Part shown: positions 19,225 through 40,432 of the stretch, piece by piece | Numbering within the stretch: the stretch's first letter is position 1 | Layout: each line of letters begins with the position of its first letter | Assembly: GCF_001021385.1 (NCBI RefSeq) | Contig: NZ_CP011773.1 | Span: 2,852,001-2,916,000, forward strand | Direction of reading: 5' to 3' | DNA length: 64,000 nt | Origin: Mycobacterium sp. EPa45 | GTDB taxonomy: Bacteria; Actinomycetota; Actinomycetes; Mycobacteriales; Mycobacteriaceae | Notes under the pieces: model-generated | What the model saw: only the letters and a program-made list of their open reading frames with translations | Databases searched by the model: none | Told to the model about the DNA's origin: nothing | Position numbers and translations under genes: made by a program

Positions 19225-20207
19225 TGCCCTCCGACGTCGCAGGGCTGGCCGAGGCGATTCGCGGCGGCGATCGTGCGGCGCTGTCGCGGGCCATCACGCT
19301 GGTCGAGTCGACCCGTGCCGATCATCGCGACCAGGCTCAGCAGCTGCTGCTGGAGTTGATGCCGAATGCGGGCGCGGCGCTTCATGTCGGCATCACCGGC
19401 GTTCCCGGGGTGGGGAAGTCGACCACCATCGAGGCGCTGGGCATGTACCTCATCGAGCGGGGCCACCGAGTCGCGGTGCTGGCCGTCGACCCATCGTCGA
19501 CCCGCACCGGCGGGTCGATCCTGGGTGACAAGACCCGGATGGCCAAGCTCGCCGTCCACCCAGACGCATACATCAGGCCGTCGCCTACGTCGGGGACTCT
19601 GGGCGGCGTAGCGAAGGCGACCCGGGAGACCGTGGTGCTGGTCGAGGCCGCCGGATTCGACGTGATCCTGGTTGAAACCGTCGGCGTCGGGCAGTCCGAG
19701 GTGGCGGTCGCCAACATGGTGGACACCTTCGTGTTCCTCACCCTGGCCCGCACCGGCGACCAACTGCAGGGCATCAAGAAGGGTGTGCTGGAGCTGGCCG
19801 ACATCGTGGTGGTCAATAAGGCCGACGGCAAGCATGCCACCGAGGCCAAGGCCGCCGCGCGCGAACTCACAGCCGCGATTCGCTTGATCTATCCACGCGA
19901 AACACTTTGGCGTCCGCCAGTTTTGACGATGAGCGCGATCGAGGGGACCGGCTTGTCCGAGCTGTGGGAGACCGTGCTCAAGCACCGTGACGTGCTGAGC
20001 AAGGCCGGCGAGTTCGACGCCCGACGGCGCGAGCAGCAGGTGGACTGGACGTGGTCGATGGTGCGCGACGCCGTCCTCGACCGGGTGCTGAACCATCCGG
20101 CCGTCCGCAGTCAACGGTCCGAGATCGAGCGTCAGGTGCGTGAGGGCGAACTCACCCCGGCGCTGGCGGCCCAGCGGCTCCTCGCGGCCGCTGGACAGTC
20201 AACCTGA
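19224..20207 (+). CDS. meaB: Methylmalonyl-CoA mutase-associated GTPase MeaB
   Basis: G3E P-loop GTPase (ArgK/MeaB family; M. tuberculosis Rv1496), 327 residues. It protects and reactivates MutAB and gates loading of adenosylcobalamin. Motifs: Walker A GVPGVGKST (59-67), the DPSS/T switch region (AVDPSSTRTGGSILGDKTRM), ETVGVGQSE (G3-like) and VVNKADGKHA (G4). The C-terminal helix-rich extension forms the dimer. Its ATG lies inside the mutB stop (TGATG), giving strict translational coupling. Older databases call this family 'ArgK', but the operon context supports MeaB. Confidence 0.96.
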
Positions 20208-20280
20208 CGGGCCGCGGGCCAAGCTAACAAAATGGCAACAATTTGTTACAGATGTGCTTAGACCGATTAAATTCTCAGCT

Positions 20281-21549
20281 GTGACTCAGGTGACTCCGGG
20301 ACGCGACACCCTGCCCCACGGGCTGCAGGGTGCTGCTGATCCGCACTTCGCCTGCGCGCTGCGCAACTTCTCGGCGATGTTCCCGCATCCCCGGTTCGGT
20401 GGCGGTGCGCTGGCGGTCTACCTCGACGGCCAGCCGGTGGTCGACGTGTGGACCGGGTGGTCGGATCGGCGGGGGCGGCAACGCTGGTCGGCGGACACCG
20501 GCGCGATGGTGTTCTCCGCAACCAAGGGTGTGGCCTCGACCGTCATCCACCGGCTCGTCGACCGCGGCCTGATCGACTACGACGCACCGGTGGCCGAGTA
20601 CTGGCCCGAGTTCGGCGCCAACGGCAAGGCTGCGATCACCGTCCGCGACATGATGCAGCACCGCGCCGGTCTGGCACACCTACGCGGGGTGCGCCGACGC
20701 GACCTGCTCAACCACGTCGTGATGGAGGAGCGCATTGCAGCGGCACCGGTCGGCCGAAATTTCGGCAAGCCGGCCTATCACGCGCTCACCTATGGCTGGC
20801 TGCTGTCCGGCTTGGCCCGCGCGGTCACCGGCATCGGGATGCGGGAGCTGATCCGCACCGAGGTGGCCGCGCCGCTCGATACCGATGGGATTCACCTGGG
20901 TCGGCCGCCGGCCGGCGCGCCCACCAGGGCCGCCTCGATCATCGGCCCCCAGATGAACATCCCCAACCCCTTCTTCAACACCATCGCCCCCCGCATCGCG
21001 GCCTTCGAGTTGTCGGCCATTTTCGGCTCCATGTACTTCCCCGGCATGAGGTCGACGGTGCAGGGTGCCATGCCGTTGCTCGACAGCGAGCTGCCCGCGG
21101 CCAACGGTGTCGCGACGGCACGCAGTCTGGCCCGCATGTACGGCGCCATCGCCAATGGCGGCGAGATCGATGGCAAGCGCTATCTGTCCGCCGAATTGGT
21201 GGCGGGCCTCACCGGCCGTCGCAATCTCACCCCGGACCGCAATTTGATTCTGCCGCTGGCTTTCCACCTCGGTTATCACGGGCTGCCGATTCCTGGGCTA
21301 CTGCCCGGCTTCGGTCACGTCGGCCTCGGCGGCTCACTCGGCTGGGCGATCCCGGAGGCGGGACTGTCGTTCAGTTTCGTGCACAACCGGCTGCTCACCC
21401 CGTTCGTGCTGGCTGACCAGGCCGGCTTCGTCACCACCGCCGCCCTGATCCGGCGGGGTGCGGCGGCCGCGCGTAAGCATGGGTTCACGCCCGTCACCGA
21501 GTTCGGCGCACGGTTCCCGGCCGCCTCGGCGGGGGTCGTCGCGGGTTAG
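20281..21549 (+). CDS. lipL: Beta-lactamase/esterase-fold protein (LipL family)
   Basis: Serine hydrolase of the class C beta-lactamase-like family (esterase family VIII), orthologous by sequence and position to M. tuberculosis LipL (Rv1497, 429 aa). GTG 20281 gives 422 residues beginning VTQVTPGRDTLPHGLQGAAD; a second GTG at 20290 is possible. The nucleophile motif is Ser79-A-T-Lys82 (FSATKG), the Tyr motif is near YHALTYGWL, and the HxG-like block is GHVGLGGSLGW near the C-terminus. No signal peptide is obvious. The 73 bases separating it from meaB are AT-rich and probably hold its own promoter. It probably hydrolyses ester lipids. Confidence 0.88.
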   Translation: MTQVTPGRDTLPHGLQGAADPHFACALRNFSAMFPHPRFGGGALAVYLDGQPVVDVWTGWSDRRGRQRWSADTGAMVFSATKGVASTVIHRLVDRGLIDYDAPVAEYWPEFGANGKAAITVRDMMQHRAGLAHLRGVRRRDLLNHVVMEERIAAAPVGRNFGKPAYHALTYGWLLSGLARAVTGIGMRELIRTEVAAPLDTDGIHLGRPPAGAPTRAASIIGPQMNIPNPFFNTIAPRIAAFELSAIFGSMYFPGMRSTVQGAMPLLDSELPAANGVATARSLARMYGAIANGGEIDGKRYLSAELVAGLTGRRNLTPDRNLILPLAFHLGYHGLPIPGLLPGFGHVGLGGSLGWAIPEAGLSFSFVHNRLLTPFVLADQAGFVTTAALIRRGAAAARKHGFTPVTEFGARFPAASAGVVAG

Positions 21550-21712
21550 CTCCGCACCCAGATTCTCGGTCTGAAGCCTTGCTGTGGCATCCCGGTGCTC
21601 GGGAACTTGCCTGATCGCAGGGTTGCGGGCCGACCCCGCCGGCCTCGCCACAGGTCCTCGTTCGGGGCTCCAGCTAACTTTCACAGGGAGTTCACAAGAC
21701 CCCCTTATGCCG

Positions 21713-21726
21713 GTGACAAATGTCAC
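21713..21726. promoter_or_regulatory. Palindrome GTGACA-AA-TGTCAC (CRP-like site)
   Basis: A perfect 6-2-6 palindrome, also readable as GTGA-N6-TCAC. This is the half-site spacing of CRP/FNR-family sites (TGTGA-N6-TCACA). It sits about 165 bp after lipL and 850 bp before the PKS start. Which transcript it serves is unclear. The palindrome is certain; the regulator is inferred. Confidence 0.4.
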
Positions 21727-22041
21727 GGAGTGCCCGATGAACCACCTATTCGGCCCTTTTTCTGGAAAAGTTCGCCAATTATCTGCGAATAGCCGGTCAT
21801 TTCTCTAGAGCCATTTGCTGACTCCGTCCGCGAAATATCAGCGCGCTGGTAATCGAAGTTTCGGTGGGAGTGGAAATGTGGTCTTAATCACGTTTCCGTG
21901 CTTTCTGCTATTGAAATCTCAGCCTACTCTCAGGTTAGTAGCCATCTCCTGTGTAACAGAACGGTAGCTGCAGGCTAGAGGGTTTTCTGATGCTGAGGCA
22001 GGATAGCGGAAACTCTCAGGGTCGCCACGCTATCACGGTGG

Positions 22042-22057
22042 CCAAGGGTGCCCTTGG
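22042..22057. repeat. Inverted repeat CCAAGGG-TG-CCCTTGG
   Basis: Perfect 7-bp arms with a 2-base centre, in the AT-richer region upstream of the PKS. It could be an operator, or a 6-bp stem with a GTGC loop in RNA. It has no T-tract, so an intrinsic terminator is unlikely. It shares the CCAAG/CTTGG core with the repeat just upstream of the PKS start. Confidence 0.35.
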
Positions 22058-22245
22058 GCTCGATGTCCGGCCTTATCGAGTGGTGGCTGGCAAGCAATTC
22101 GGGTGAGCCCTTCGCCCAATCTGGAAACCGGCATATTTTGAATTTGCTATAACGCCGTTGATGCCAAATTGTGTCCGAATTGCGATAGTAAACACTCTGC
22201 AACTTCCAACTTGCCCCGGAAAACAGGGGCGGTGGAGGCATCCCG

Positions 22246-22452
22246 ATGGTTGCTCAGTTGCAGACTCATCATCAAACATGCTGGTCAAAGGCTTGGATAG
22301 CGCAGTCAATGGAAGCGCTGAGAATATCTCGCCGGGAAGCGTTGTCTCCAGATCAGCTATCGGTTATCCGCCAGTCGGAGGACACCCTTAGGGTCAAAGG
22401 TCACTTTGTCCAAACCCCAATCAAAAAGTCGAAACATTTGTCGCGCACTTAA
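22246..22452 (+). CDS. Possible small protein, 68 aa, unknown
   Basis: Short frame starting at ATG 22246, preceded at ideal distance by GGAGG (22234-22238). The predicted product (68 residues, MVAQLQTHHQTCWSKAWIAQ...) is basic and soluble, with no recognised domain. Its central segment (SMEALRISRREALSPDQLSV) could form a helix pair. Base composition is lower in GC than surrounding genes and codon bias is weak, so it may be a spurious frame or a decayed remnant. It is reported because it is the only frame in this 1 kb gap with a strong ribosome site. Confidence 0.25.
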   Translation: MVAQLQTHHQTCWSKAWIAQSMEALRISRREALSPDQLSVIRQSEDTLRVKGHFVQTPIKKSKHLSRT

Positions 22453-22528
22453 CGAAAAACAGCTAGGCTACCGAGGACATTGGCAACTTTGACTCGGTGC
22501 TTTGAGCTAGATGGTCGTGTTTCGTTGC

Positions 22529-22544
22529 CTTGGCCAGTGCCAAG
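22529..22544 (+). promoter_or_regulatory. Inverted repeat CTTGGC-CAGT-GCCAAG before the PKS ribosome site
   Basis: Perfect 6-bp arms with a 4-base loop ending 16 bases upstream of the PKS GTG. It abuts the ribosome site (AGAGAGGTG). It could serve as an operator close to the promoter or as an mRNA hairpin affecting initiation. The structure is seen; function is inferred. Confidence 0.35.
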
Positions 22545-22560
22545 AGAGGTGTGAGCGGAC

Positions 22561-25500
22561 GTGCGTCAGACATCTGTCACCCCCATCGCCGTAGTCGGCA
22601 TGGCGTGCCGGTTGCCCGGTGGTATCGACTCGCCTCACAAGCTGTGGGAAGCGTTGCTCGAGGGTGCCGATCTGGTCACTGAAGTTCCCGCTGATCGATG
22701 GGATGCCGAGGATCTCTACGACCCGGAGCCCGGTGTGCCGGGTCGCTCGGTGTCGAAGTGGGGTGCGTTCATCGATGACGTCACCGGTTTCGATCCCGAT
22801 TTCTTCGGCATCAACGAGCGCGAGGCCACGGCGATGGACCCGCAGCACAGGGTGCTGCTGGAGACCAGCTGGGAAGCCATCGAGCAGGCGGGCTTCACGC
22901 CGTCGTCGCTGTCCGGAACGTCGACCGGCGTCTTCATCGGCATGTCCCACGACGACTACGCGATGGTCACCAGCGACGCCGGCGCCTTCGACCAGGCCTA
23001 CGCCTTCACCGGCAATCCGTTCAGCATGGCCTCGGGCCGTATCTCGCACGCGCTCGGTTTGCACGGCCCCGCGCTGACCACCGACACCGCCTGCTCCTCG
23101 AGTCTCGTCGCGGTGCACCAGGCGTGCCGCAGCCTGCATGAGGGTGAGAGTGACATGGCCCTGGCCGGCGGCGTGATGCTGATGCTGGACCAGCGTCTCT
23201 ACGCCTCGTCGTCGGGGCAGGGCATGCTGTCGCCGACCGGACGCTGCCACTCCTTCGACGTCGCCGCCGACGGCTTCGTGCGCGCCGAGGGCTGCGGGAT
23301 CGTCGTGCTCAAGCGCCTCGACGACGCTCAGCGCGACGGCGACCGCGTCCTCGCCGTCATCAAGAGCACCGCCTCCAACCAGGACGGCCGCACCGAGAAC
23401 ATCCTGACGCCGTCGCGCGACGCCCAGGTGTCGGTGTTCGAGGCCGCGCTGTCCGCCGCCGGCGTCGACCCCGCCACGGTCGGCATGGTGGAGGCGCACG
23501 GCACCGGAACGCCGGTGGGCGACACCATCGAATTCAACAGTGTCTCCAGCGTCTACGGCACCGACGGACCCTGCGCCCTGACGTCGGTCAAGAGCAATTT
23601 CGGCCACGCCGAGTCCGCGGCCGGCGTCCTGGGCCTGATGAAAGCCGTTCTCGCCGTGCACCACGGCGTCGTGCCGCAGAACGTGCACTTCAACCAGCTG
23701 CCCGAGCAGCTCACCAGGATCCAGACGGGCATGTTCGTCCCGTCCGAGAACATCCCGTGGCCCAAGAACGGGGGACCCCGCCGCGCGGGCGTGTCGTCTT
23801 ACGGCATGTCCGGCACCAATGTGCACGCGATTCTCGAGCAGGCGCCCGATGCTCCCGTGGTCGTCGACGCCGCCAAGACCGACGCCGCCAAGGATCTCCT
23901 GGTCTTCCCGGTGTGCTCCAGCTCGGTCGACGAGCTCCGCAACACCGCTGGGCGCCTGGCTGATTGGGTCGAGGCCGCCGGCGACGATCTGTCGCTGCCG
24001 GACCTGGGCTACACGCTCGCCCGCCGGCGCGGACACCGCCCGATGCGCACGTCCGTCATCGCCGACGACCGCGCCGAGCTGATCGCCGGCCTGCGCCACG
24101 TCGCCGAGGGCGACGACCCGTTCCAGCCCGCCGTCGGTCACGACGACCGTGGCCCGGTGTGGATCTTCTCCGGCCAGGGCTCGCAGTGGGCGTCGATGGG
24201 CACCGGTCTGTTGGCCACCGAGCCGGTCTTCGCCGCGAAGGTCGCCGAGATCGAGCCACTGATCGCCGCCGAGTCCGACTTCTCGGTCACCGAGGCGATG
24301 ACCGCCCCGGAGACCGTCGAGGGTATCCACCGGGTGCAGCCGACCATCTTCGCCGTTCAGGTCGCGATGGCCGCCACGATGCGGTCCTACGGAGTTGCGC
24401 CCGGCGCGGTGATCGGCCACTCGCTGGGCGAGGTCGCAGCGGCCGTCGTCTCCGGCGCACTGTCCCTGGAGGACGGCGTCAAGGTCATCTGCCGCCGCTC
24501 GCTGCTGTGCCTGCGGTTGGCCGGCGGGGGCGCGATGGCGTCGGTCGAGATGCCCGCCCAGCAGGTCCGCGAGGAGCTCGAGCAGCAGGGCATCGAAGAC
24601 GTCGTCGTCGCCGTCGTGGCATCGCCCAAGTCCACCGTGATCGGCGGCGACACCGAGACCGTCCGCCGGATCGTCGCAGGCTGGGAGGCCCGCGAGATCA
24701 TGGCCCGCGAGGTCAACGTCGACGTGGCGTCGCACTCGCCGCAGGTCGACCCGATTCTCGACGAGCTCGCCGAGATGCTCGACGACATCACTCCGATGGC
24801 TCCCGAGGTGCCGTACTACTCGGCGACCTCCTTCGACCCGCGCGAGCAGCCGTACTGTGACGCCGACTACTGGGTCGACAACCTGCGCCACACGGTCCGG
24901 TTCTCGGCTGCCGTCCAGACTGCGCTGGAAGACGGTTTCCGGGTGTTCGGCGAACTGGCGCCGCACCCACTGCTGATCCGCGCCATCGACCAGACCGCGG
25001 CCACGCTGGACATCTCCGTGGCCGCGCTGGCCGGGATGCGACGCGGTCAGGAAGTGCCGCACGGCATGGGCGAGTTCCTCGGCGACCTCTACTCCGCCGG
25101 AGCGCAGGTCGACTTCTCCGTGCTGTACCCGGTCGGCCGGCTGGTCGACGCACCGCTTCCGACCTGGGCGCACCGCAACCTGGTCCTGATGCCGGACGGC
25201 ACCGAGAACCAGACCCGCGGCACGCACCTGGTGGCGGCCCACCCGCTGCTGGGTGCGCACGTCCGCCTGCTGGAGGAGCCCGAGCGCCACGCCTGGGCGG
25301 CCGAGGTCGGAACGTCCGCCCACCCGTGGTTGGTGGACCACCAGATCAACAACGTCGCTGCGCTGCCAGGTGCGGCCTACTGCGAGATGGCGCTGGCCGC
25401 CGCGCGCACCGTGTTCGGTGACGACGCGGAGGTCCGTGACGTCACGTTCGACGCGATGCTGCTCCTCAAGGATCTGACCCCGGTCAGCGCCACGGCCGAG

Positions 25501-28500
25501 GCGGACACCACTGGTGTCCTGCACTTCGTGGTCGAGACCGACGCCGAGGGCGAGCGTGAGCAGCGGGCCAGCGCCGTGCTGACCGCGGGCGAGGCCGGCG
25601 AGCAGCCGCGGACGTACGACATGGACGCGCTTCGTGACGCCCATCCCAACCATGCCGCCGGTGACGGCGTGCGGCAGTGGTTCGACGGCCGCGGCGTGCA
25701 GTTCGGTCCGGCGTTCACCGCGCTGCAGGCCGTCAACGCGGCCGACGAGAACGCCGACACCGTGCTGGCCGAGATCGGGTTGCCGACCTCGATCCGCAAT
25801 CAGCAGACGTCCTACGGAGTCCACCCGGCACTGCTCGACGCCTGCTTCCAGTCGGTCGCGGCCCATCCGGGCGTGCAGTCGTCCGGCACCGGCGGTCTGC
25901 TGCTCCCGCTCGGCGTGGACCGTCTGCGCGTGCACGGCCCGGTCCGCAACGCCCGGTACTGCCTGACCCGCATCACCTCGCTCGACGGGTCCACCGTCCA
26001 GTCCGACATCGACCTGCTCGACGACTACGGCACGGTGCTGTTCACCGTCCAGGGTCTGCGGATGGGCAGCGGCATGTCGGAGAGCAATGAAGGCGACCGG
26101 GTGCTCAACGAGCGGTTGCTCGGCATCGAGTGGCGCCAGCAGCAGCTCGCCGAGGTCACCCAGACCACGTCTGCGACGTGGTTGCTGGTCAGTACCTCCG
26201 ACACCGTCGACCTGCTGGCCTCGGCGCTGACCGACGCGCTCAAGCTCGCCGACGCCGACGTCACGACGATGTCCTGGCCGCAGCAGGCCGACCATGCCGC
26301 CAATGCCGAGCTGCTCGCGTCCTACTTCTCCGGCGGCAGCTTCGACAACGTCGTCGTGGTCTCCCCGGCCCGCGTCGCCGGCTGCCCCGAAGAGCAGCTG
26401 CCGCATCGCGGGGGAGAGCAGGTCCGCCACCTCGTGCGCGTCGCCCGCGAGCTGGCCGACACCGCCGGCGACGCGCCCCGGCTCCACGTGATCACCCGCA
26501 ACGCTCAGACCGTGCTTTCCGATGACCGGCCCAATCTGGAGCAGGCGGGCCTTCGCGGCCTGCTGCGGGTGATCGGCGCCGAGTACCCGGAACTGCGCCC
26601 AAGCCAGATCGACGTCGACGACGATGTCGACGCCAAGCTGGTGGCCCGCGTGTTGCTGTCCGGTTCGGAGGAGGACGAGACCGCCTTCCGCGCCGGCACG
26701 TGGTACACCGCGCACCTGTTCCCGAACCCGCTGCGGCCCGACGAGCGCTACACCACCGTCGTCGATCACTCCCGCGACGGCATGCGGCTGGAAATCCGTA
26801 CGCCCGGTGACATGCAGACCCTGGAGCTGGCGGCGTTCGACCGCATCCCGCCCGGGCCCGGGCAGATCGAGGTGGCGGTCACCGCGTCCAGCCTGAACTT
26901 CGCCGACGTCCTGCTGGCCTTCGGCCGCTACCCGAGCTTCGAGGGTCTGCACCCGCAGCTGGGCATCGACTTCGCCGGTGTGGTCACCGCGATCGGCCCG
27001 GACGTCACCTCGCACCGGGTCGGAGACCACGTGGGCGGCATGTCGCCCAACGGCTGCTGGGGCACGTTCGTGACCTGCGATGCCGATGTTGCCGTGACCC
27101 TGCCGCCGGGCCTGCGTGACGATCAGGCCGCCGCCGTGTCCACCGCGTCGGCGACCGCCTGGCACAGCCTGGTCGACCTGGCCAAGATCAAGGCCGGCGA
27201 CAAGGTGCTGATCCACTCCGCCACCGGCGGTGTCGGTCAGGCGGCCATCGCGATCGCCCGGCACGCCGGGGCGGAGATCTTCGCCACCGCCGGTACCGAA
27301 GAGCGCCGGGACATCGTGCGCGCGATGGGCATCGAGCACGTCTACGACTCGCGAAGCGCAGCCTTCGCCGAGGAGATCCGCCGCGACACCGACGGCTACG
27401 GCGTGGACATCGTGTTGAACTCGCTGACCGGTGCTGCTCAGCGGGCCGGCGTCGACCTGCTGGCCTTCGGTGGCCGGTTCGTCGAGATCGGCAAGAAGGA
27501 CATCTACGGCGACACCCGCCTCGGGTTGTTCCCGTTCCGGAAGAACCTGTCCTTCTACGGAGTCGACCTGGCGCTGATGGCGACCACGCACCCCGAGCAG
27601 ATCCGCGAGCTGCTGGACACCGTGTACCGGCTGACGGCCGAGGGCGTTCTGCCCCAGCCGGAGACCACGCATTACCCGCTGGCCGATGCGGCCACCGCGA
27701 TCCGCGTGATGGGTGCCGCCGAGCACACCGGCAAGCTGCTGTTGTCGGTGCCAAAGGTGGGTCACAGCAGCGTCGTCGTGCCGCCGGAGCAGGCCAAGGT
27801 GTTCCGCGGGGACGGGTCCTACATCATCACCGGTGGCCTCGGCGGCCTGGGCTTGTTCCTCGCCTCGAAGATGGCCGCGGCGGGCTGCGGCCGGATCGTG
27901 CTCAACTCGCGCTCGGAGCCGAAGCCCGACGCACTGGCCGAAATCGAGCGCATGCGGGCCGCCGGAACCGAGGTCGAGGTCGTCAGCGGCGACATCGCGC
28001 TGTCGGAGACGGTCGACCGCCTGGTGACCGTGGCCACCGCGACCGGCATGGCCGTGCGCGGCGTGCTGCACGCGGCCGCGGTCGTCGAGGATGCCATCCT
28101 GCCCAACATCAGCGACGACCTGATCGACCGGGACTGGGCCCCCAAGGTCTACGGAGCCTGGCATCTGCACCGGGCCACCACCGCGCAGCCGCTGGACTGG
28201 TTCTGCTCGTTCTCCTCGGCGGCGGCCCTGCTGGGCTCACCCGGTCAGGGCGCCTACGCCGCGGCCAACAGCTGGCTCGACGGGTTCACCCACTGGCGTC
28301 GTGCGCAGGGCCTGCCTGCCACGGCGGTTGCCTGGGGCGCCTGGGATCAGATCGGTGCGGGCAAGCACCTGGCCGCCTCGGGCGACACCACGATGATCAG
28401 CCCGGAGGAAGGCGCGCGGGCGTTCGAGGCGCTGCTGCGCCACGACCGTGCCTACAGCGGTTACGCACCGATGATAGGGACGCCGTGGCTGACCGAGCTT

Positions 28501-28848
28501 GCCGGGCGCAGCCCGTTCGCGGAGGCCTTCAAATCCAGTGGCGATCGTCCCGCAGACACCAGCACCTTCCGGGCCGAGCTGCACGAGCTACCGCGCGAGG
28601 ACTGGCCGATGCGAGTTCGTCGATTGGTATCGGAGCAGCTCAGCCTGATTTTGCGGCGCTCGATTGATCCGGATCGGCCGATTTCCGAATACGGTCTGGA
28701 CTCGTTGGGCAACCTGGAACTGAGGACGCGCATTGAAACTGAAACGGGGATACGCGTCCGATCGATGGATATAACGACTGTCCGGTCGTTGGCCGAGAGC
28801 CTGTGCGAAACACTGGCCGGCGTCATAACGTCAGCTGCATCCCGCTAA
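22561..28848 (+). CDS. Mycocerosic-acid-synthase-like iterative type I polyketide synthase
   Basis: Single-module, fully reducing PKS of 2095 residues, the size of the Mas/Pks2/Pks3-4/Pks5 family that makes methyl-branched acids from methylmalonyl-CoA. Domain order: KS (~5-430; Cys178 in DTACSSS, His313 in EAHGTGT, His349), AT (~530-860; Ser621 in GHSLGE), DH (~885-1150; His927, with N in place of G in HxxxGxxxxP), ER (~1420-1730; [11 protein letters not shown]), KR (~1750-1930; GGLGGLGLF, Tyr in GAYAAANS) and C-terminal ACP (Ser2048 in GLDSLG). There is no thioesterase, as in Mas, where release uses Pap-type acyltransferases. The start is GTG 22561. It heads a probable four-gene operon with the acyltransferase genes. 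Methylmalonyl-CoA could be supplied by the nearby mutAB. Closest to Pks5-type enzymes by context. Confidence 0.93.
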
Positions 28849-28870
28849 TAGGGTCGAAGGGGTAATTAGG

Positions 28871-30328
28871 GTGGTTGCACTAACAGCAATCCATGACTGG
28901 GTAGACGCGCCAGGCAAGGTCGTGTCGTGGAGCCCGTCACCGGCCTGCCTGAAGAAAGTTCAGGACGCGCCGATCAGCGATGCTCCGGCCAGCTATCAGC
29001 AGGCCCAGCACATCCGCAGCTATCGCAATCACACGGCCAATGGCCTGGAGATGGCGCGGCTGCTGATCCCGGCGTGGAACATGCCGGGCAAGTGTGACGT
29101 CCGGGCGATGACCTTCGTCATCAACGCCTACCTGCGGCGGCACGACACGTTCCACAGCTGGTTCGAGTTCTCCGCCGACGAGAACGGTGCGGAGCAGATC
29201 GTCCGCCACACGGTGCAGAACCCGAACGACATCCAGTTCGTGGCCACCAAGCACGGTGAGATGAACTCCGCCCAGTGGAAGAAGCATGTGCTCGACACCC
29301 CGAGCCCGTTGGAATGGGATTGCTTCCGCTTCGGTGTCATCCAGCGCGAGGACCACTTCACGTTCTACGTCAGCGTGGACCACCTGCATGCCGACGCGAT
29401 GCTGATGATGGCGCTGTTCGTCGAAATGCACATGAACTACGAGGCGCTGGCCGGGGGTGGCGCACCGCTGCGGCTGCCCGAGGCCGGCAGCTACCAGGAT
29501 TACTGCACCCGTCAGCACGAGTACACCAAGCAGCTGACCATGGATTCGCCCGATGTCCGGGGCTGGCTGAACTTCCTGGAGAGCAACGGCGGCACCATGC
29601 CGACGTTCCCGCTGCCGCTCGGCGATCCGTCGGTGCACTGCAGCGGTGACCTGCTCACCGTCCAGCTGATGGACGAGCACGAGTCGGACCGCTTCGAGTC
29701 GGCCTGCACCGCGGCCGGTGTGCGCTTCATCGGTGGCGTGTTCGCCGCGGCAGCGCTCGCTCACCGGCAGTTGACCGGCGACGACGACTACCACGTCATC
29801 ACCCCGACCACGACGCGCAGCACTCCCGCGGAGTTCATGACCACGGGCTGGTTCACCGGTGTGGTCCCGCTGTCGGTGCCCGTTGCCGCCCGCAACTTCG
29901 CCGAGGTCGCCCGGGCAGCCCAGGAGTCCTTCGACTCCGGGATGCCGCTGGCCAACGTGCCGATCGAGCGGGTCTACGAGCTGGCGGAGTCCGAAGAGAC
30001 GCCGCGCATCCGGCCGGCCGGTCCCGGCGTCCCGATGCTGTCCTACCTCGACGTGGGCCTGCCGCCACTGAACCCGGTGATCATGTCCCAGTGGTATGCG
30101 CTCAACGGGCACATCTACACGGACCTGGGTGCGGCCAATCAGGTCGGCATGTGGGTGAACCGCCGTGCCACCGGCACGATCATCACGGTCGCGTACCCGG
30201 ACAACCCGATCGCCCGCGAGTCGGTCGCCGAGTTCGTCGAGCTGATGAAGTGCATTTATCTTCGGGTGGCCGACGGCCGTTCCGAGCTGGTTTCGTCGTC
30301 GTCTCGCGTGCCCGCCGCGACGGTCTGA
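28871..30328 (+). CDS. PapA-type polyketide-associated acyltransferase
   Basis: Condensation-like acyltransferase of the PapA1/A2/A3/A4 family, 485 residues (family 470-510). It probably transfers the methyl-branched acyl chain from the upstream PKS onto a sugar such as trehalose. The catalytic HxxxD motif is His171-LHA-Asp175, with Ala instead of the usual Gly after Asp (DA). N-terminal SWSPSPACLKKVQDAPIS and the conserved PTTTRSTPAEFMTTGWFTG-type block (~317-336) are typical of PapA proteins. GTG 28871 follows the PKS stop by 22 bases. Which PapA subfamily it belongs to cannot be settled by eye, so no symbol is assigned. Confidence 0.88.
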   Translation: MVALTAIHDWVDAPGKVVSWSPSPACLKKVQDAPISDAPASYQQAQHIRSYRNHTANGLEMARLLIPAWNMPGKCDVRAMTFVINAYLRRHDTFHSWFEFSADENGAEQIVRHTVQNPNDIQFVATKHGEMNSAQWKKHVLDTPSPLEWDCFRFGVIQREDHFTFYVSVDHLHADAMLMMALFVEMHMNYEALAGGGAPLRLPEAGSYQDYCTRQHEYTKQLTMDSPDVRGWLNFLESNGGTMPTFPLPLGDPSVHCSGDLLTVQLMDEHESDRFESACTAAGVRFIGGVFAAAALAHRQLTGDDDYHVITPTTTRSTPAEFMTTGWFTGVVPLSVPVAARNFAEVARAAQESFDSGMPLANVPIERVYELAESEETPRIRPAGPGVPMLSYLDVGLPPLNPVIMSQWYALNGHIYTDLGAANQVGMWVNRRATGTIITVAYPDNPIARESVAEFVELMKCIYLRVADGRSELVSSSSRVPAATV

Positions 30329-30333
30329 TCTCC

Positions 30334-31764
30334 GTGGGCGACGATCGCCGCCGAGGCTCACGCCTCCGGCGCCGGGCCGTTCGGCCTGCACCCGACAATC
30401 CTGCACCCGACAATCCTGCACCCGACAATGTGGTGCCGTATGCGGATCAGGCGCTGCTGTTGGCACTGCGTGGCGCGGGCCAAGAGGCCGTCATGCAGCT
30501 CATCTGGATCTACGAGCACGAGCTCGACCTTGACGGGGTGCGGCGCTTCCACCAGAACTTCGGGCACGGGTTGGTCGGCCGCCTGATCGAGCGTTCAGCG
30601 CTGCCGTTCGGTCGGCACCGCTGGGTCTCGGTAGCCGGCCCGCAAACCCCACTGGAGATCGCCGACCACCCGCGGCCCCGCGAAGAGTTGTGGGACTGGG
30701 CCCACGAGCAGGTCGAATTGCCGCTCGATCCCGAGATGTCGCCGGCCTGGCGGGTGGGCGTCCAGTCATTCACCGACGGCACCAGCGCGGTGAGCCTGGT
30801 CGTGTCCCACACGATCGTCGACGGCGCCGGCATCGTCGCGTCCGTCATCGCCGCGATCCACGGCAGCGGTAAAGACCTCGGTTATCCGCCTCGGCACTCG
30901 CGTACCCGCACCCGCGCGGTGATCGAGGATCTGCGCCAGTTGGGTGCCGATCTGCCGGAGATCGGGCGAACACTGGTCAAGGCGGCGAAGGTCGCGACAC
31001 GGCGCAGGGACGAGCTGGTGCGCCCGAGCGAACCGGTGTCCGCGCCCGCTCGCGGTCGCGGTCAGCCGGTCATGACGGCGTTCACGACTGCCGTCATCGA
31101 CATCGAGCAATGGGACGCACGCGCGAAAGCGCTTGGTGGGAACTATTTTTCGCTGGTGGCCGGATTCGCCGGCAAGCTGGCTCAGCACATCGGACGCATC
31201 CGTCCCGGTGATGGCGCGGCAACGCTGATGATCCCGGTCAGCGAGCGCGACAACCCCGGCGGCGAGACCGGTGGCAACGTGGTGACGATCGCCAACGTGA
31301 CGTTCGACCCGGAGCCGGTCGCGAACGATCTCACCGGTGCTCGTGCGGCGATCAAGAAGGGGCTGGTGACCGCGCGGGCGACGCCCGACGAGATGGTCGA
31401 GTTGCTGCCGCTGATCCCTTTCGTGCCGAAGCGGGCGATGGGCCGGATGGCCGACATGGCGTTCAACTTCGCCGCCGACGTCCCGGTTTCCTGTTCGAAC
31501 ATGGGCGATGTTCCCGACGACCTGCTCAAGATCGACGGCACACAGGCTGAACGCCTCTACTTCGGCGGTGTCGACCGTAATCTCACTCTCGACGTCCTCG
31601 AACGGCGGCGCGGCCTTATGACGGTGGCATCGGCGCGCCTCGGGGGCAAGGTCATCCTCCCGGTGATGAGTTATCAGCCCGGCGCGGATAATTCGCGCAC
31701 CCGATTGCGCGAGGTGATCGCCCAAACTCTGGCAGAGTTCGAATTGTCGGGCACCATCGAGTGA
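30334..31764 (+). CDS. HxxxDG acyltransferase-like protein (WS/DGAT-like), first paralogue
   Basis: Protein of 476 residues from GTG 30334, 5 bases after the papA-like stop; GTG 30430 is an alternative start that would remove a PAPDN-repeat tail. It has the HxxxDG motif of the condensation/WS-DGAT superfamily (His159-TIV-Asp163-Gly with the longer start). Other shared family blocks are ERSALPFGRHRW (~85-95) and the C-terminal PVSCSNMGDVPDDLLKIDG. The next gene is a clear tandem paralogue. Similar paired genes sit beside pks/papA in lipooligosaccharide-type loci of fast growers. It probably acylates a glycolipid intermediate; substrate unknown. Confidence 0.8.
   Translation: MGDDRRRGSRLRRRAVRPAPDNPAPDNPAPDNVVPYADQALLLALRGAGQEAVMQLIWIYEHELDLDGVRRFHQNFGHGLVGRLIERSALPFGRHRWVSVAGPQTPLEIADHPRPREELWDWAHEQVELPLDPEMSPAWRVGVQSFTDGTSAVSLVVSHTIVDGAGIVASVIAAIHGSGKDLGYPPRHSRTRTRAVIEDLRQLGADLPEIGRTLVKAAKVATRRRDELVRPSEPVSAPARGRGQPVMTAFTTAVIDIEQWDARAKALGGNYFSLVAGFAGKLAQHIGRIRPGDGAATLMIPVSERDNPGGETGGNVVTIANVTFDPEPVANDLTGARAAIKKGLVTARATPDEMVELLPLIPFVPKRAMGRMADMAFNFAADVPVSCSNMGDVPDDLLKIDGTQAERLYFGGVDRNLTLDVLERRRGLMTVASARLGGKVILPVMSYQPGADNSRTRLREVIAQTLAEFELSGTIE
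30385..30429 (+). repeat. Three perfect tandem copies of a 15-bp unit
   Basis: The unit CCTGCACCCGACAAT occurs three times without mismatch (30385-30399, 30400-30414, 30415-30429). It ends directly before the alternative GTG start at 30430 of the acyltransferase-like gene. If translated it encodes (PAPDN)3, and copy-number change would not shift the frame. A minisatellite of this sort can vary between strains. Confidence 0.9.
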
Positions 31765-31774
31765 GGTTTGTGCA

Positions 31775-33127
31775 GTGAGCACGCAATCTGAGGAGCATCG
31801 GCTCGAGTTCTTCGACCAGACGGCATTCGAGCTGATGCGCGCCACCGGGCGCGGCCAGCTCATGCAGTGCGTCTGGGTCTACGAGCACCCCGTCGACTTC
31901 GAGGGGCTTCGGCGCTTCCACCGCAACATCGCGGACTCGCTCGGCGGCCGGCGCATCGAGCGCTCACCGCTGCCGTTCGGCCGACCGCGGTGGGTCCAAC
32001 CGCGCCAGGCGCCGTCGGAGATCCAGATCAACGAAACGCCCCGCCCGCGTGACGAACTCATGGCGTGGGCCGACGAGCTCGCTACCTTGCCGATCGACCC
32101 CGAATATGGCCCCACCTGGTACCTGGTGGTCCAGCCGCTGACCGACGGTGCGACCGCGATCAGCATGGTGGCTTCGCATGTCATCGGCGACGGCACCGCC
32201 GCCGGACTCGCCATCTTCGAGGCGGTCACCGGCAACGTCCGGGACGGGGGATATGACCGGCCGGGCTCGCGGACCCGTCGCCAGGCGCTGGCCGCCGATG
32301 CGCGCCAGGCCCTGCGGGACTTGCCGCAGACGCGCAAGGCGCTTGCGACGGGGGCGAAGTTGGTGTGGAGCAAGCGCCGCGACATCGCCCAGTCCAGGAA
32401 GCGGCGCGCCCGCGAGGCGTCGCTGGAGGAGATCGTCCACGTGCCATCGGTGGCGGCGTTCGTCGACATCTCCGAGTGGGATGAGCGGGCGGAAAGCCTT
32501 GGCGGAAACGGCTATTCGCTCCTCGTGGGTGTCACGGCGAAGCTGGCCGAGCGATTGGGCCGACGTCGCAAGTCCGACGGTGCCGTGACGCTGGTGATCG
32601 CGATCAACCTGCGCGAGAGCCTCGACGACGATCGGGCCCTGGCGATGGCCTTCGCGAATGCCACCGTCGACCCGGAGAAGGTGACCGTCGACCTGACCGA
32701 GGCGCGCACCGTCGTGCGCGAGTCGCGCCAGATGGCCAAGGACCAGACCGACCCGGCGATGGAACTGTTCCCGCTCATGCCGTGGCTGCCCAAGCCCGCG
32801 GTCAAGGGCGTGGCCGAGTTGCTGTTCTCGTATTCCGAAGACCTTCCGGTGTCCTGTTCCAACCTCGGCGACCTGCCGCCGCAGATCGCTCAGGTGGACG
32901 GCACGACCGCGGAGAAGGTCGTGCTGCGGGCCCTCGATCAGAACGTCACCCGCCGCGAGATCGAGCGTTCGCACGGCCAGCTGGTCGTGGTGTCCGCGCG
33001 ACTCAACGGCAAGGTCGTGATCTCGATCGAGGCCTACGAGATCGGTGCGGACAACACCAAGCAGCGACTGCGGGACCTGGCCGCTCAGACGTTGACGGAG
33101 TTCGGGCTCAACGCGGTCATCGAATAG
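31775..33127 (+). CDS. HxxxDG acyltransferase-like protein (WS/DGAT-like), second paralogue
   Basis: Protein of 450 residues from GTG 31775, 10 bases after its paralogue. It aligns with the upstream gene throughout: RGQLMQCVWVYEHPVDFEGLRRFHRN against QEAVMQLIWIYEHELDLDG; ERSPLPFGRPRW; SHVIGDG with His135 and Asp139; PVSCSNLGDLPPQIAQVDG; and a C-terminal GADNTKQRLRDLAAQTLTEF. The pair therefore arose by tandem duplication and diverged. No membrane segment is present. It is the last gene of the PKS operon and ends 6 bases from the convergent GAP-family gene. Family assignment is good, substrate unknown. Confidence 0.82.
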   Translation: MSTQSEEHRLEFFDQTAFELMRATGRGQLMQCVWVYEHPVDFEGLRRFHRNIADSLGGRRIERSPLPFGRPRWVQPRQAPSEIQINETPRPRDELMAWADELATLPIDPEYGPTWYLVVQPLTDGATAISMVASHVIGDGTAAGLAIFEAVTGNVRDGGYDRPGSRTRRQALAADARQALRDLPQTRKALATGAKLVWSKRRDIAQSRKRRAREASLEEIVHVPSVAAFVDISEWDERAESLGGNGYSLLVGVTAKLAERLGRRRKSDGAVTLVIAINLRESLDDDRALAMAFANATVDPEKVTVDLTEARTVVRESRQMAKDQTDPAMELFPLMPWLPKPAVKGVAELLFSYSEDLPVSCSNLGDLPPQIAQVDGTTAEKVVLRALDQNVTRREIERSHGQLVVVSARLNGKVVISIEAYEIGADNTKQRLRDLAAQTLTEFGLNAVIE

Positions 33128-33133
33128 CCCGGC

Positions 33134-33859
33134 TCACAGGCCGTGCAGCCCGATCCCGATCAGGACGAGGCCGAGCACCGCGAGGAAGGCTCCGACGTGT
33201 TTGCGGGTACGGGTGCGGATCCAGTTATTGAAGTGCTGCACCCAGATTCGGGTTCTCGCAGGTGCGACGAGGAAGCTCAGCAGCGGCAACCACGCGACCA
33301 AGCCACCCAGTAGAAGAAACGTCAGCACCGCGGCTGCCTGCTCGAGCGGCGGGGCTTGCGAGGCGATGATGAGCGCGAGCAGTGCAAAATAATCGACGCT
33401 CGGCATCGCGAGCGTCGCGCCGAGCGATCCGGACAACAGTGACGATTCGCCCTTCAGGAACTGGCCGAAGCGGTGGACGAGTTTCTTCAGCCCGGTGGGC
33501 GGTGGGTCCTCTGTCTCGGCGACACCGTCGGTCGCGGCCCGGTTGGGCACCTCCGCCATCGACGGGTGAGAAGCCTTGCGCAACTTGATGTTTGAGGCCA
33601 GCACCGCTCCCAACAGCATGGCGACGATTCCGATGCCGATCTGAATGTAGGCCGGGTTGACGCTGCCGCTGCTCAGAAAACTGTGATGGAAGACGAACAG
33701 GACGACGAATCCCACGGTGAGGCTGACCGTCAGGCCGGTGCAGAGGAACCCGAGCAATTGGCGAACGGGCCGTTGCTTGGTCAGCAAAAAGGCGATCGCG
33801 CCGACCCGCGCCGGTTCGATGCTTATCGCAAAACCGAGCAGAACGACGGTTGTCCACAC
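33134..33859 (-). CDS. GAP/Sap-family lipid-addressing membrane protein
   Basis: Polytopic membrane protein of 241 residues, start GTG 33859. About six membrane helices are visible (e.g. TVVLLGFAISIEPARVGAIAFLL, AYIQIGIGIVAMLLGAVLA, AAAVLTFLLLGGLVAWLPLLSFLV, VGAFLAVLGLVLIGIGL). A charged cytoplasmic loop in the middle (~95-140) carries KLRKASHPSMAEVP and GLKKLVHRF. This is the layout of Gap (needed for glycopeptidolipid surface export in M. smegmatis) and Sap (sulfolipid-addressing protein). Next to a PKS, Pap and glycosyltransferase it most likely helps a glycolipid reach the cell surface. It is the last gene of the reverse operon, 45 bases after the glycosyltransferase. Confidence 0.85.
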   Translation of the reverse strand: MWTTVVLLGFAISIEPARVGAIAFLLTKQRPVRQLLGFLCTGLTVSLTVGFVVLFVFHHSFLSSGSVNPAYIQIGIGIVAMLLGAVLASNIKLRKASHPSMAEVPNRAATDGVAETEDPPPTGLKKLVHRFGQFLKGESSLLSGSLGATLAMPSVDYFALLALIIASQAPPLEQAAAVLTFLLLGGLVAWLPLLSFLVAPARTRIWVQHFNNWIRTRTRKHVGAFLAVLGLVLIGIGLHGL

Positions 33860-33904
33860 GAAGGCGAATCCTACCTTGCCAGCCGATTTGCCCGCGTGGC
33901 TCGC

Positions 33905-35182
33905 TTACCTGGTGACGGAGTTGCCGGCGGTCGCTTCGAGGAGGTCGGCGGCCTTCGCGACGCTGTCCGACGGGGCGGTCATCTGGGTAGCGAGCAAACG
34001 AGCCCGTTCGGCTGTTCCGGGCGTGAGCACTGCCCGGAGATCGCTCAGCAGCGAATCGCGCGTGGTGGCGGTGAACCGCCTGGACCTGCCGACGCCCAGC
34101 CGAGTGACCTGTTTGCCCCATAGCGGTTGTTCGGCCGCCACCCACAGCACCAGGGTGGGGACACCGGCGCGGACGCCGGCCGCAGTGGTGCCCGCGCCGC
34201 CGTGGTGCACCACGGCCCGGCACGACGGGAAGACGGTGGCGTGGTTGACAGCGGGAACGACCTTGACGTGTGGGGCTGTCATGGCGTCGACGTCCGAGAA
34301 TCCCGCGCAGAACAGGGCCCGCTCGCCGAGCAGGTCGCACACGTCGGTGATCATGCGAACCGCGGCGGTGGGGGAGTCGAGTGGCATGCTGCCGAAACCG
34401 AAGTAAATGGGCGGGGTGCCCGCGGCGATCCACGACGCCAATTCCTCGTCGGTGTCGGTGGGCATCTGCAATGTCAGTGACCCGACGAGGGGGCGCCGAT
34501 CGTCCCATTCGCCCACCAGTCCCGGGAAGAAGACCGGGTCGTAGGCCTGGATCTCCAGGGTTTTCGCGGCGACGATGCGGGCCACCGGCCGGGTCGATGC
34601 CGCAGGCAGGCCCAAGGCGACCCGCTGTTGGCTCTCGGCCGGTTTCAAGATCCGCCAATGCATCCATTCGCCGGCCGCATAGCCGGCGCTGACCACGGAC
34701 AACGGCACGTGCACGGGCAGGAGTTGAGTATTGGCGCGGACGGGGAAGTAGTGCACCTCGGCCAGCGGCAGCCCGCGGTACTCGGCGATGTTGGCGGCGA
34801 TTTCCTGATACGCCGTACCGCTCACGACCAGGTCGGCGCCGTCGGTCATGGCCAGCAGTGTGTCACTCATGTCGGCCCAGCCGCGGGTGGCGGCTGCCCG
34901 GGCTTTCCGCAGTGCGTTCAGCGGGTTGCCGAGCCGGAGCCAGTCCGCCGGGGCCGCCGCGGTGAGTGCATCCGGGCGTTCGAACACATCACCTTGCAGC
35001 TGTTGTTGTGAGTCGGGTCCGTACGCGACGGTCGTCGGCAACCCCGCGGATCGGACAAACGCGACGAGGTTGGGTGGGACGGCCATGTGCACGTCATGCC
35101 CGCGGCGCTGCAATTCGAGGCCTACCGCCGCACAAGGCTCGACGTCACCACGGGTGCCGTGAATGCTGACCGCGATCTTCAT
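33905..35182 (-). CDS. GT1-family glycosyltransferase (UGT-like)
   Basis: GT-B glycosyltransferase of 425 residues, similar in layout to mycobacterial GPL/LOS rhamnosyl- or glucosyltransferases such as Rv1524/Rv1526c, which flank pks5 in M. tuberculosis. The N-terminal motif MKIAVSIHGTRGDVEPCAAVG matches the acceptor-domain signature. The C-terminal nucleotide-sugar motif includes PSCRAVVHHGGAGTTAAGVR followed by GVPTLVLW (~325-350), and YFGFGSMP is present near residue 260. No membrane helix; cytosolic. It probably adds a sugar to the lipid made by this locus. Donor and acceptor cannot be read from sequence. Its start is 38 bases after the membrane-protein gene. Confidence 0.9.
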   Translation of the reverse strand: MKIAVSIHGTRGDVEPCAAVGLELQRRGHDVHMAVPPNLVAFVRSAGLPTTVAYGPDSQQQLQGDVFERPDALTAAAPADWLRLGNPLNALRKARAAATRGWADMSDTLLAMTDGADLVVSGTAYQEIAANIAEYRGLPLAEVHYFPVRANTQLLPVHVPLSVVSAGYAAGEWMHWRILKPAESQQRVALGLPAASTRPVARIVAAKTLEIQAYDPVFFPGLVGEWDDRRPLVGSLTLQMPTDTDEELASWIAAGTPPIYFGFGSMPLDSPTAAVRMITDVCDLLGERALFCAGFSDVDAMTAPHVKVVPAVNHATVFPSCRAVVHHGGAGTTAAGVRAGVPTLVLWVAAEQPLWGKQVTRLGVGRSRRFTATTRDSLLSDLRAVLTPGTAERARLLATQMTAPSDSVAKAADLLEATAGNSVTR

Positions 35183-35220: not shown

Positions 35221-35955
35221 TCAGCCAGGGGTTCGGGTGAACCACCGGGTCTTGATGCGCCACGAATGTGCCGAAGTCACCGCGAAGCCGGCGCCGCAGA
35301 AGCAGGCGAAGAACCAGACCAGGGTGCCGCCCTCGAGATCCTGAAGAGGGGGGACGTAGGCGGTGATGATGCGAATCGTGCAGGCGAGGATGCCGCTCGC
35401 CGACGACACCAGGTAGATGTTGGCAATGCGTCGTGACCGCGGGTCCTGGCGCAGGACGAACAGCGCCCGCGACCCGTAGCCGAGCAGATAGATCAGCGTC
35501 CCGCACAGCAGGAGCCAGTAGGCCGACAGCCAGAAGTCGGTCGGCACGGTGAAGAAGTCCGAACGATAGATTTTCGCGCCGTTGCCGATTGAAAAGGTTG
35601 CCAATAGCAAGGGAATGCAGAGCGTCGCCGGGCGCTCGACATATTGCTTGAATGCGGCCTGCGTCGCGTTGTCGTCCTGCAGCCGGCCGAGTGCGTTGTA
35701 GACGATTGCCGAAGCTGCCACGACATAGCAGTCATGGCCGATGTAGTCCTCGAGGTTCCATACTCCGGTCAGCGAGTGCAGCAGCTGACCGATGGTTTCG
35801 GACGCGAGCGGGGACATCAGGAACACCGCCGCACCCTGCAGTGCGATGTTCAAAGTGGCGGCTACTTCCCACCGGCATGACCAGGTAAGCCGCCTGATCC
35901 ACAAGCTCCACGACACGAACCCAAGCGTGATCGTGATCAGTGCCCCAAGACCCAT
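35221..35955 (-). CDS. Polytopic membrane protein paired with HTH regulator, unknown
   Basis: Integral membrane protein of 244 residues from ATG 35955, with about seven hydrophobic helices, e.g. LGALITITLGFVSWSLWI at the N-terminus, CYVVAASAIVYNALG, FWLSAYWLLLCGTLIYLLG and LVWFFACFCGAGFAV near the C-terminus. A charged loop (GRLQDDNATQAAFKQYVERP) sits around residues 90-110. No enzymatic motif is recognised. It starts 40 bases after the stop of the HTH gene, so the two probably form a regulatory module, perhaps a membrane sensor acting on the HTH protein. It is also plausibly co-transcribed with the downstream glycosyltransferase and GAP genes. Not a family I recognise by name. Confidence 0.75.
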   Translation of the reverse strand: MGLGALITITLGFVSWSLWIRRLTWSCRWEVAATLNIALQGAAVFLMSPLASETIGQLLHSLTGVWNLEDYIGHDCYVVAASAIVYNALGRLQDDNATQAAFKQYVERPATLCIPLLLATFSIGNGAKIYRSDFFTVPTDFWLSAYWLLLCGTLIYLLGYGSRALFVLRQDPRSRRIANIYLVSSASGILACTIRIITAYVPPLQDLEGGTLVWFFACFCGAGFAVTSAHSWRIKTRWFTRTPG

Positions 35956-40300: not shown

Positions 40301-40432
40301 CGGGCGGATTGGGCTGCGGCGCACACCGATCTGATCGCGGGCGAGATATTGGCAACGAGCTTCGACTTCGGCGAGCCCGACGCCGGCGTCGAGATCGGCG
40401 ACGGCGTGCGGGTCGCGATCGCCAAGGCCTGA
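37313..40432 (+). CDS. ileS: Isoleucyl-tRNA synthetase
   Basis: Class Ia aminoacyl-tRNA synthetase, 1039 residues (M. tuberculosis about 1041), the longer eukaryote-like IleRS type often associated with low mupirocin sensitivity. The HIGH-equivalent motif is [12 protein letters not shown] (52-63); KMSKS is [12 protein letters not shown] (~615-627). An editing domain is present between them ([12 protein letters not shown] near 230-242). The C-terminal anticodon-binding part runs from ~700. The GTG start at 37313 follows the T-box leader; expression is expected to rise when charged tRNA-Ile falls. The coiled-coil gene follows after 2 bases. Confidence 0.98.

Follow-up and report, generated by a model that had tools for sequence, protein, structure and literature searches.

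A Mas-type polyketide synthase locus of Mycobacterium sp. EPa45 as putative core of a dispersed acyl-glycolipid pathway with an unlinked MmpL

The stretch analysed here (the window, 64,000 nucleotides, G000:C1:2852001-2916000) comes from the 6.18-Mb single-contig genome of Mycobacterium sp. EPa45 and carries, between lipL and ileS, a locus encoding a Mas-type polyketide synthase (PKS), a PapA-type acyltransferase, two HxxxDG acyltransferases (AT1 and AT2), a Sap/GAP-like membrane protein and a glycosyltransferase (GT). This gene order and domain content, given in a preliminary description of the DNA, were confirmed, as was its statement that the locus encodes neither a fatty-acid-AMP ligase (FAAL) nor an MmpL transporter: none of the 77 AMP-binding and none of the 39 MMPL matches found genome-wide lies inside the window. 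We consider it probable that the locus supplies the acyl chain and the assembly functions at the core of a lipooligosaccharide (LOS)-like pathway for a methyl-branched acyl-glycolipid, and that the genes of this pathway are scattered over the genome in the lineage, the fatty acid being loaded by a FAAL in trans and the product exported by an unlinked MmpL; the pathway looks split, not incomplete. What the sequences show is the gene content, the absence of FAAL and MmpL at the site, an unlinked MmpL with its relationships, and FAALs at other places in the genome; from these we infer the enzymatic steps, the product and the link among the scattered genes.

For comparison of the site, AT2 was used as a query with one genome per species, which yielded 27 loci; the fragments L061, L062 and L066 were left out of the trees. 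The closest relatives by locus are Mycolicibacterium/Mycobacterium species, e.g. M. sphagni, M. litorale and M. pinniadriaticum. The order PKS-PapA-AT1-AT2-Sap-GT-o244-o245-ileS is kept in all ten close relatives (L050-L059; the contig of L053 ends inside the PKS), with PKS identities of 86-96% and no FAAL or MmpL found in the locus in any of them, so that the window arrangement is not a matter of chance. A decaying remnant, from which FAAL and MmpL were lost and which makes no product any more, would explain why these two usual neighbours of a PKS of this kind are missing, but the genes are open frames in which catalytic motifs are present and are kept in 10/10 relatives, and we hold this explanation to be highly improbable.

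In most other loci the GT is followed by MmpL, with a FAAL between MmpL and o244 in L070, L072 and L076. The fullest locus seen, L194, reads PKS, PapA, AT1, AT2, FAAL, a third acyltransferase, Sap, GT, MmpL, o244, ileS; relative to it, the window locus is without FAAL, third acyltransferase and MmpL, in line with the earlier view that the position is conserved and the content reduced. In such complete-type loci lipL also lies 5' of the PKS. A FAAL lies within ~12 kb of the locus MmpL in 8/8 complete-type genomes (G015-G022), and none was seen in the flank of the complete-type locus L193. A further set of loci, group 2, carries MmpL in the locus wherever the flank suffices (L060, L063-L065), and no FAAL was seen in these four. 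The shared site was encountered here only in the genus of the window and its named relatives; in slow growers the lipL-ileS site is, we assume, the position of the pks5/LOS locus.

The preliminary description had proposed a genome search for orphan FAAL and mmpL genes, and this search recovered one unlinked MmpL and two FAALs as candidate partners (Table 1). With the locus MmpL of L076 as query, the best match in the genome was 61% identical (1577907-1580843), followed by 46% for the MmpL10 of a trehalose polyphleate (TPP)-type locus and then 39%. The gene lies 1.30 Mb from the PKS locus, and its ortholog was found in 10/10 relatives (G001-G010) at 73-95% identity, adjoining add in nine (in three of them also satS) and satS alone in L113. 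It is on a contig other than that of the PKS locus in 8/10 relatives and on the same contig, at 1.5 and 1.2 Mb, in G002 and G007.

Linkage was counted in a genus sample of 248 genomes, using the best 72 MmpL rows (at least 55% identity) and one AT2 place per genome. Matches of at least 72% identity came from 15 genomes, among them G060 with an AT2 identity of only 54%, and all 15 were unlinked to AT2 (7 on the same contig at a distance of at least 1.2 Mb, 8 on another contig). Together with G002 (one contig), G004, G005 and G010 (another contig), the MmpL is unlinked in 19/19 window-type genomes; in 11 of these 19 this means another contig of a draft, which does not alone prove distance, and six of the ten close relatives duplicate entries of the 248-genome sample with identical coordinates (G001=G108, G003=G195, G006=G037, G007=G028, G008=G168, G009=G188). 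In 53 of the 57 genomes with a match of 55-65% identity, an AT2-family gene is no more than 25 kb away (no more than 8 kb in 43); the remaining four comprise G148 and G204, with MmpL on another draft contig, and G105 and G175, without an acyltransferase among the matches listed.

In the MmpL tree, from which the duplicate rows L073, L074, L131 and L134 were left out and in which L132 joins the TPP sequences by long branches, the 12 unlinked MmpLs form one clade (support 100/100) inside a 100/100 clade with all 11 included complete-type locus MmpLs, while TPP MmpL10 and five group-2 MmpLs fall outside. On the strength of the 61% match, the orthologs in relatives and this placement, the possibility that MmpL is simply gone was rejected. 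Of the two options left by the preliminary description, MmpL acting from elsewhere is well supported by the unlinked ortholog, the tree and the 19/19 count, and a different export route is not supported; judging from these sequence comparisons, export was most likely relocated rather than replaced. One relocation in the ancestor of the window lineage is the simplest reading. A move in the opposite direction, into the locus, may also be compatible with the tree, because the inner forks among the locus MmpLs are open.

The add site was inspected in 14 genomes that have a locus MmpL: ten leave no room for the gene (satS next to add in four, a gap of 1.4 kb or less in six), three hold another MMPL gene and one was not callable. 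The three other MMPL proteins beside add (L185, L186 and L187, in G022, G018 and G017) are 31-32% identical to MmpL10, and the site may be a landing place for MMPL genes. In L191 (G111), a locus-type MmpL is found across ileS, some 6 kb beyond it, and in nine other genomes MmpL lies 10-17 kb from the acyltransferases; its position may have changed more than once. LOS export in M. marinum needs mmpL12 (PMC12507525), and in a limited literature search, among the portions of text available, no published account of an unlinked exporter for such a locus was met.

That the TPP transporter MmpL10, or some other MmpL, exports the product while the unlinked MmpL serves something else is quite unlikely in our estimation. 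MmpL10 is at hand next to FadD23 in 9/10 relatives as well as in G000, G025 and G251, and the MmpL of group-2 loci is placed nearer to it in the tree (89/83); against this, G010, with a window-type locus, has a single match of the MmpL subfamily at E<=1e-180, namely the unlinked MmpL, and it is the latter, not MmpL10, that groups with the complete-type locus MmpLs.

As to loading, the locus FAAL of L076 has two FAAL matches of more than 50% identity in the genome, all others reaching 42% at most. One is divergently transcribed from a second Mas-type PKS, itself 62.5% identical to the window PKS; it passes the NCBIfam fatty-acid-AMP ligase model, has FadD23 and FadD28 as closest PDB entries and is referred to below as the second-PKS FAAL. 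The other is the FadD23 of the TPP-type locus. The second-PKS FAAL is present in 10/10 relatives (G001-G010) and 13/15 window-type sample genomes; no match at E<=1e-225 was found in G025 and G251, where the five best first-look candidates per genome were considered and G251 was not among the matches listed. These two genomes both carry a TPP-type set with FadD23 as an open frame, at 89% in G025 and at 77% in G251. Conversely, the draft genome G010 has the second-PKS FAAL, its other FAAL matches being 42% or below, i.e. without TPP-type FadD23. The latter was checked in G000, G001-G010, G025 and G251, with the label in G001-G009 resting on a distance of ~2 kb to the MmpL10 match; in these 13 genomes, G025 and G251 keep TPP-type FadD23, G010 the second-PKS FAAL, and the other ten both. 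All 19 window-type genomes thus have at least one FadD23-type FAAL elsewhere, with no single unlinked FadD23-type ortholog common to all of them and no locus-type FAAL seen in any.

Two more specific partnerships were considered and not upheld. The second-PKS FAAL is not a locus FAAL relocated in the manner of MmpL, since it forms a clade of its own (100/99) apart from the locus FAALs, and since G020 and G022 have it in addition to a locus FAAL; nor is it an obligate partner, having no match in G025 and G251. The best fit is with a FAAL that loads the acyl chain in trans and is exchangeable, and the FAALs thereby support the earlier suggestion of an activity from elsewhere circumstantially, by the presence of a FadD23-type FAAL in 19/19 genomes. 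A leaky fadD23 mutant of M. smegmatis hints that FAALs can substitute for each other (PMC10465359).

Alternatively, the PKS could take acyl-CoA or FAS-derived acyl chains directly, without any FAAL, export still being by the unlinked MmpL. Purified Mas uses acyl-CoA primers in vitro, which would favour such loading, and both the want of one unlinked FadD23-type ortholog throughout the window-type genomes and the lack of a FAAL in the loci of the ten close relatives and of group 2 (L060, L063-L065) agree with it. We regard it as unlikely: none of the 19 window-type genomes is without a FadD23-type FAAL, the eight complete-type genomes G015-G022 all have a FAAL near the locus MmpL, and FAAL-free loading fits this distribution less well than supply in trans. 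A tentative extension of supply in trans, which we put forward as a possibility rather than as an expectation, is that the window PKS has no dedicated loader and uses whichever FadD23-type FAAL the genome keeps, so that two or three lipid pathways would share and compete for one activating enzyme, with the exporter unlinked since the common ancestor of the lineage.

Several observations weigh against the preferred explanation. In a tree of ketosynthase (KS) domains (first 520 residues, loci with cut PKS left out, root unsure with a distant outgroup), the window-type PKSs group with those of the group-2 loci L060 and L065 (100/99) and not with the complete-type PKSs, the split itself being starred; the second PKS of the genome groups with the complete-type PKSs (97/98). 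L060 and L065 have another MmpL and no FAAL was seen there. The window locus may therefore go back to a FAAL-less core of long standing, or such a core may have taken its place, without any loss of genes from a complete locus; the unlinked MmpL, in turn, might originally not have been the shipper of the product of this PKS. L190, assigned to group 2 by its MmpL although a FAAL is in its locus, shows that FAAL and MmpL types are not always paired. Furthermore, the tree has the relocation as a single event, which means that 19 genomes are not 19 independent observations, and the second-PKS FAAL lies near a large non-ribosomal peptide synthetase (NRPS) to which it may be dedicated, as TPP FadD23 may be to TPP. 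The KS tree and L190 weaken the simple-loss story, not the finding of an unlinked exporter.

The surroundings of the second PKS also bear on whether the genome holds a second complete copy of the cluster with linked FAAL and MmpL. None was found: the second PKS has a FAAL, the scanned genes of its 20-kb stretch include no PapA, GT or MmpL, with the closest MMPL matches at 4758 kb, and the TPP-type locus (FadD23, MmpL10, PapA3, Sap) has a different PKS. Around the second PKS and its FAAL (G000:C1:4690-4722 kb; L046, L049), a condensation-PCP protein and frames of 5211 aa (four adenylation domains) and 1590 aa (one) are encoded; the region looks like a PKS-FAAL-NRPS lipopeptide cluster, as predicted from its domains, and is found in G113 too (L268, L269). 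FAAL-PKS fusions, open frames of ~2470-2720 aa that join a FAAL to a PKS module, occur in three of the ten relatives (G001:C12:126570, L169; G002:C1:175263, L167; G005:C30:548103, L168).

Table 1. Genes and candidate elements of the locus, in window coordinates, and unlinked candidate partners, in coordinates of contig C1.
Feature	Position	Strand	Remarks
LipL-type esterase/beta-lactamase, left border of site	20140..21549	+	PF00144 7.7e-61; NF052353 LipL 748 bits, above cut-off
Non-coding leader, 1.0 kb, before PKS	21550..22560	.	candidate regulatory (Lsr2-type) region
Mas-type PKS, 2095 aa	22561..28848	+	NF041183 3604.9 bits (cut-off 2400)
PapA-type acyltransferase	28871..30328	+	Condensation 2.4e-24; PapA2 in PDB 557.6 bits, 2e-166
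Acyltransferase AT1, HxxxDG (HTIVDG)	~30334..31764	+	start uncertain: 30334, 30430, 30433 or later
Acyltransferase AT2, HxxxDG (HVIGDG)	31775..33127	+	WS_DGAT_cat 0.0017, weak, below cut-off
Sap/GAP-like membrane protein	33134..33859	-	PF11139 7.8e-39
Glycosyltransferase, GT28/EryCIII-like	33905..35182	-	PF06722 1.8e-13; PF03033 8.2e-8
o244, conserved 244-aa protein of site	35221..35955	-	no Pfam match; present in complete-type loci too; not counted as pathway
ileS, right border of site	37313..40432	+	TIGR00392 828 bits, above cut-off
Unlinked MmpL, 1055 aa, no internal stop	G000:C1:1577850-1581017		between add (adenosine deaminase) and satS (protein export chaperone)
Second-PKS FAAL	4690123-4691868		divergent from second Mas-type PKS
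TPP-type FadD23	441468-443162		more than 50% identical to locus FAAL of L076

By Pfam, the window PKS is arranged as KS (8-377), acyltransferase (533-842), dehydratase (894-1168), enoylreductase (~1432-1728), ketoreductase (1752-1929) and acyl carrier protein (ACP, 2018-2079), with no Pfam match for a thioesterase. The catalytic motifs are present, and the acyltransferase domain has VASH, the motif found in Mas as well, which is read as methylmalonyl-specific. The PKS scores 2879 bits against the mycocerosic acid synthase 9d2z and passes the Pks2 model NF041183, a mark of the sulfolipid-1 system that does not discriminate because the second PKS passes it too; an assignment of the PKS to Pks2, Pks5 or Mas was dropped, as neither model scores nor PDB scores discriminate. 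The PapA motif is HLHADA, not HxxxDG (a minor correction), and the protein is 46% identical to the TPP-type PapA3 of the same genome. AT1 and AT2 are 41-42% identical to each other and match no Pfam family above its cut-off; H135, D139 and G140 of AT2 are invariant in 21/21 aligned AT2 relatives. In L188 (G060:C145:55000-74000), which is otherwise window-type, PKS and PapA are 90 and 94% identical to those of the window and AT1 and AT2 only 50 and 53%, and this acyltransferase pair looks swapped, as far as identities can indicate. The AT2 and Sap genes converge with 6 bp between them.

For the preferred pathway, dispersed and loaded in trans, the following sequence of steps is proposed. A FadD23-type FAAL (TPP-type FadD23 or the second-PKS FAAL) would activate a fatty acid in trans and hand it to the PKS, which would extend the chain with methylmalonyl-CoA. 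PapA would then move the chain from the ACP to a sugar, probably trehalose because PapA resembles PapA2 and PapA3, and AT1 and AT2 would add further acyl groups. The GT would add a sugar, and the unlinked MmpL, as a relocated locus-type transporter, would export the lipid with the help of Sap. The product is probably a branched-chain acylated surface glycolipid. The mutAB-meaB genes, named earlier as methylmalonyl-CoA supply, do lie upstream; as a signal of the pathway they were not upheld, since mutAB-meaB-lipL precedes the PKS in the complete-type locus L192 as well and is a common neighbour.

Among known systems, the complete-type loci at the ileS site (Mycolicibacterium-type; L194, L192, L193, L076) share the site, the PKS-PapA-AT-AT core, the GT and in some cases Sap with the window; they differ in having their own MmpL at or near the locus, mostly a FAAL where the flank suffices, and a KS of another group. 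With the LOS (pks5) locus the window has in common a Mas-type, fully reducing PKS without thioesterase and a PapA beside it, whereas it has one GT in the searched locus instead of several, and neither MmpL nor FAAL. The sulfolipid-1 set consists of Pks2, PapA1/A2, Sap, MmpL8 and FadD23; the window locus resembles it in a PKS that passes the Pks2 model, a PapA closest in the PDB to PapA2 and the presence of Sap, and departs from it in having a GT and an unlinked MmpL. The TPP-type locus of the same genome (C1:422-443 kb) has PapA (46%), Sap (31%), FadD23 and MmpL10 of the same families and a separate, larger PKS (3736 aa, ~34% identical to the window PKS). Its label rests on the gene set (compare PMC10465359): of pks, papA3, mmpL10, fadD23 and pE, which together mark TPP and diacyltrehalose loci, the first four occur there, pE was not identified there, and the set is not found at the window. 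The M. marinum LOS locus likewise has PKS, PapA and GTs, and its acylated glycan depends on an MmpL for export (PMC12507525, PMC13354803), but it comprises ~40 genes (PMC13354803) with mmpL12 in the cluster (PMC12507525), compared to one GT and an unlinked MmpL here. In the M. smegmatis LOS island MSMEG_4727-4737, likened to the window locus by its published description, a Mas-type PKS is needed for a LOS-class glycolipid, and Lsr2 binds upstream and silences it (PMC8125055, PMC11139207).

The leader of the window PKS is suggestive in the same respect. No other part of the window is as rich in A+T as this 1.0-kb leader, with 51.6% G+C in the 500 bases upstream of the PKS compared to 67.3% for the window; of the 12 lowest-G+C 500-base stretches, 11 start at 21651-22151 and the other at 35951. 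Conserved blocks are found just before the PKS start and short ones further upstream (10 aligned window-type leaders). Measurement of 21 other loci gave a low G+C content for this 500-base stretch there too (52-63%). Lsr2, a protein with a preference for A+T-rich DNA, represses the LOS PKS gene MSMEG_4727 of M. smegmatis (PMC8125055), and when lsr2 is mutated the LOS island changes phage adsorption (PMC11139207). By analogy, an Lsr2-like control of the window locus is conceivable.

On sequence grounds the locus would be a dispersed variant of known acyl-glycolipid (LOS-like) loci, ordinary in kind and unusual in layout. Mycobacterial lipid pathways are usually inferred from a single cluster in which FAAL, PKS, PapA and MmpL are neighbours; in the present case, an apparently incomplete cluster together with comparative data points to one particular unlinked gene as candidate exporter and to a few FAALs as candidate loaders, with the warning that cluster-based annotation will miss exporters. 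The pairing of FAAL and PKS thereby becomes a testable question in environmental species.

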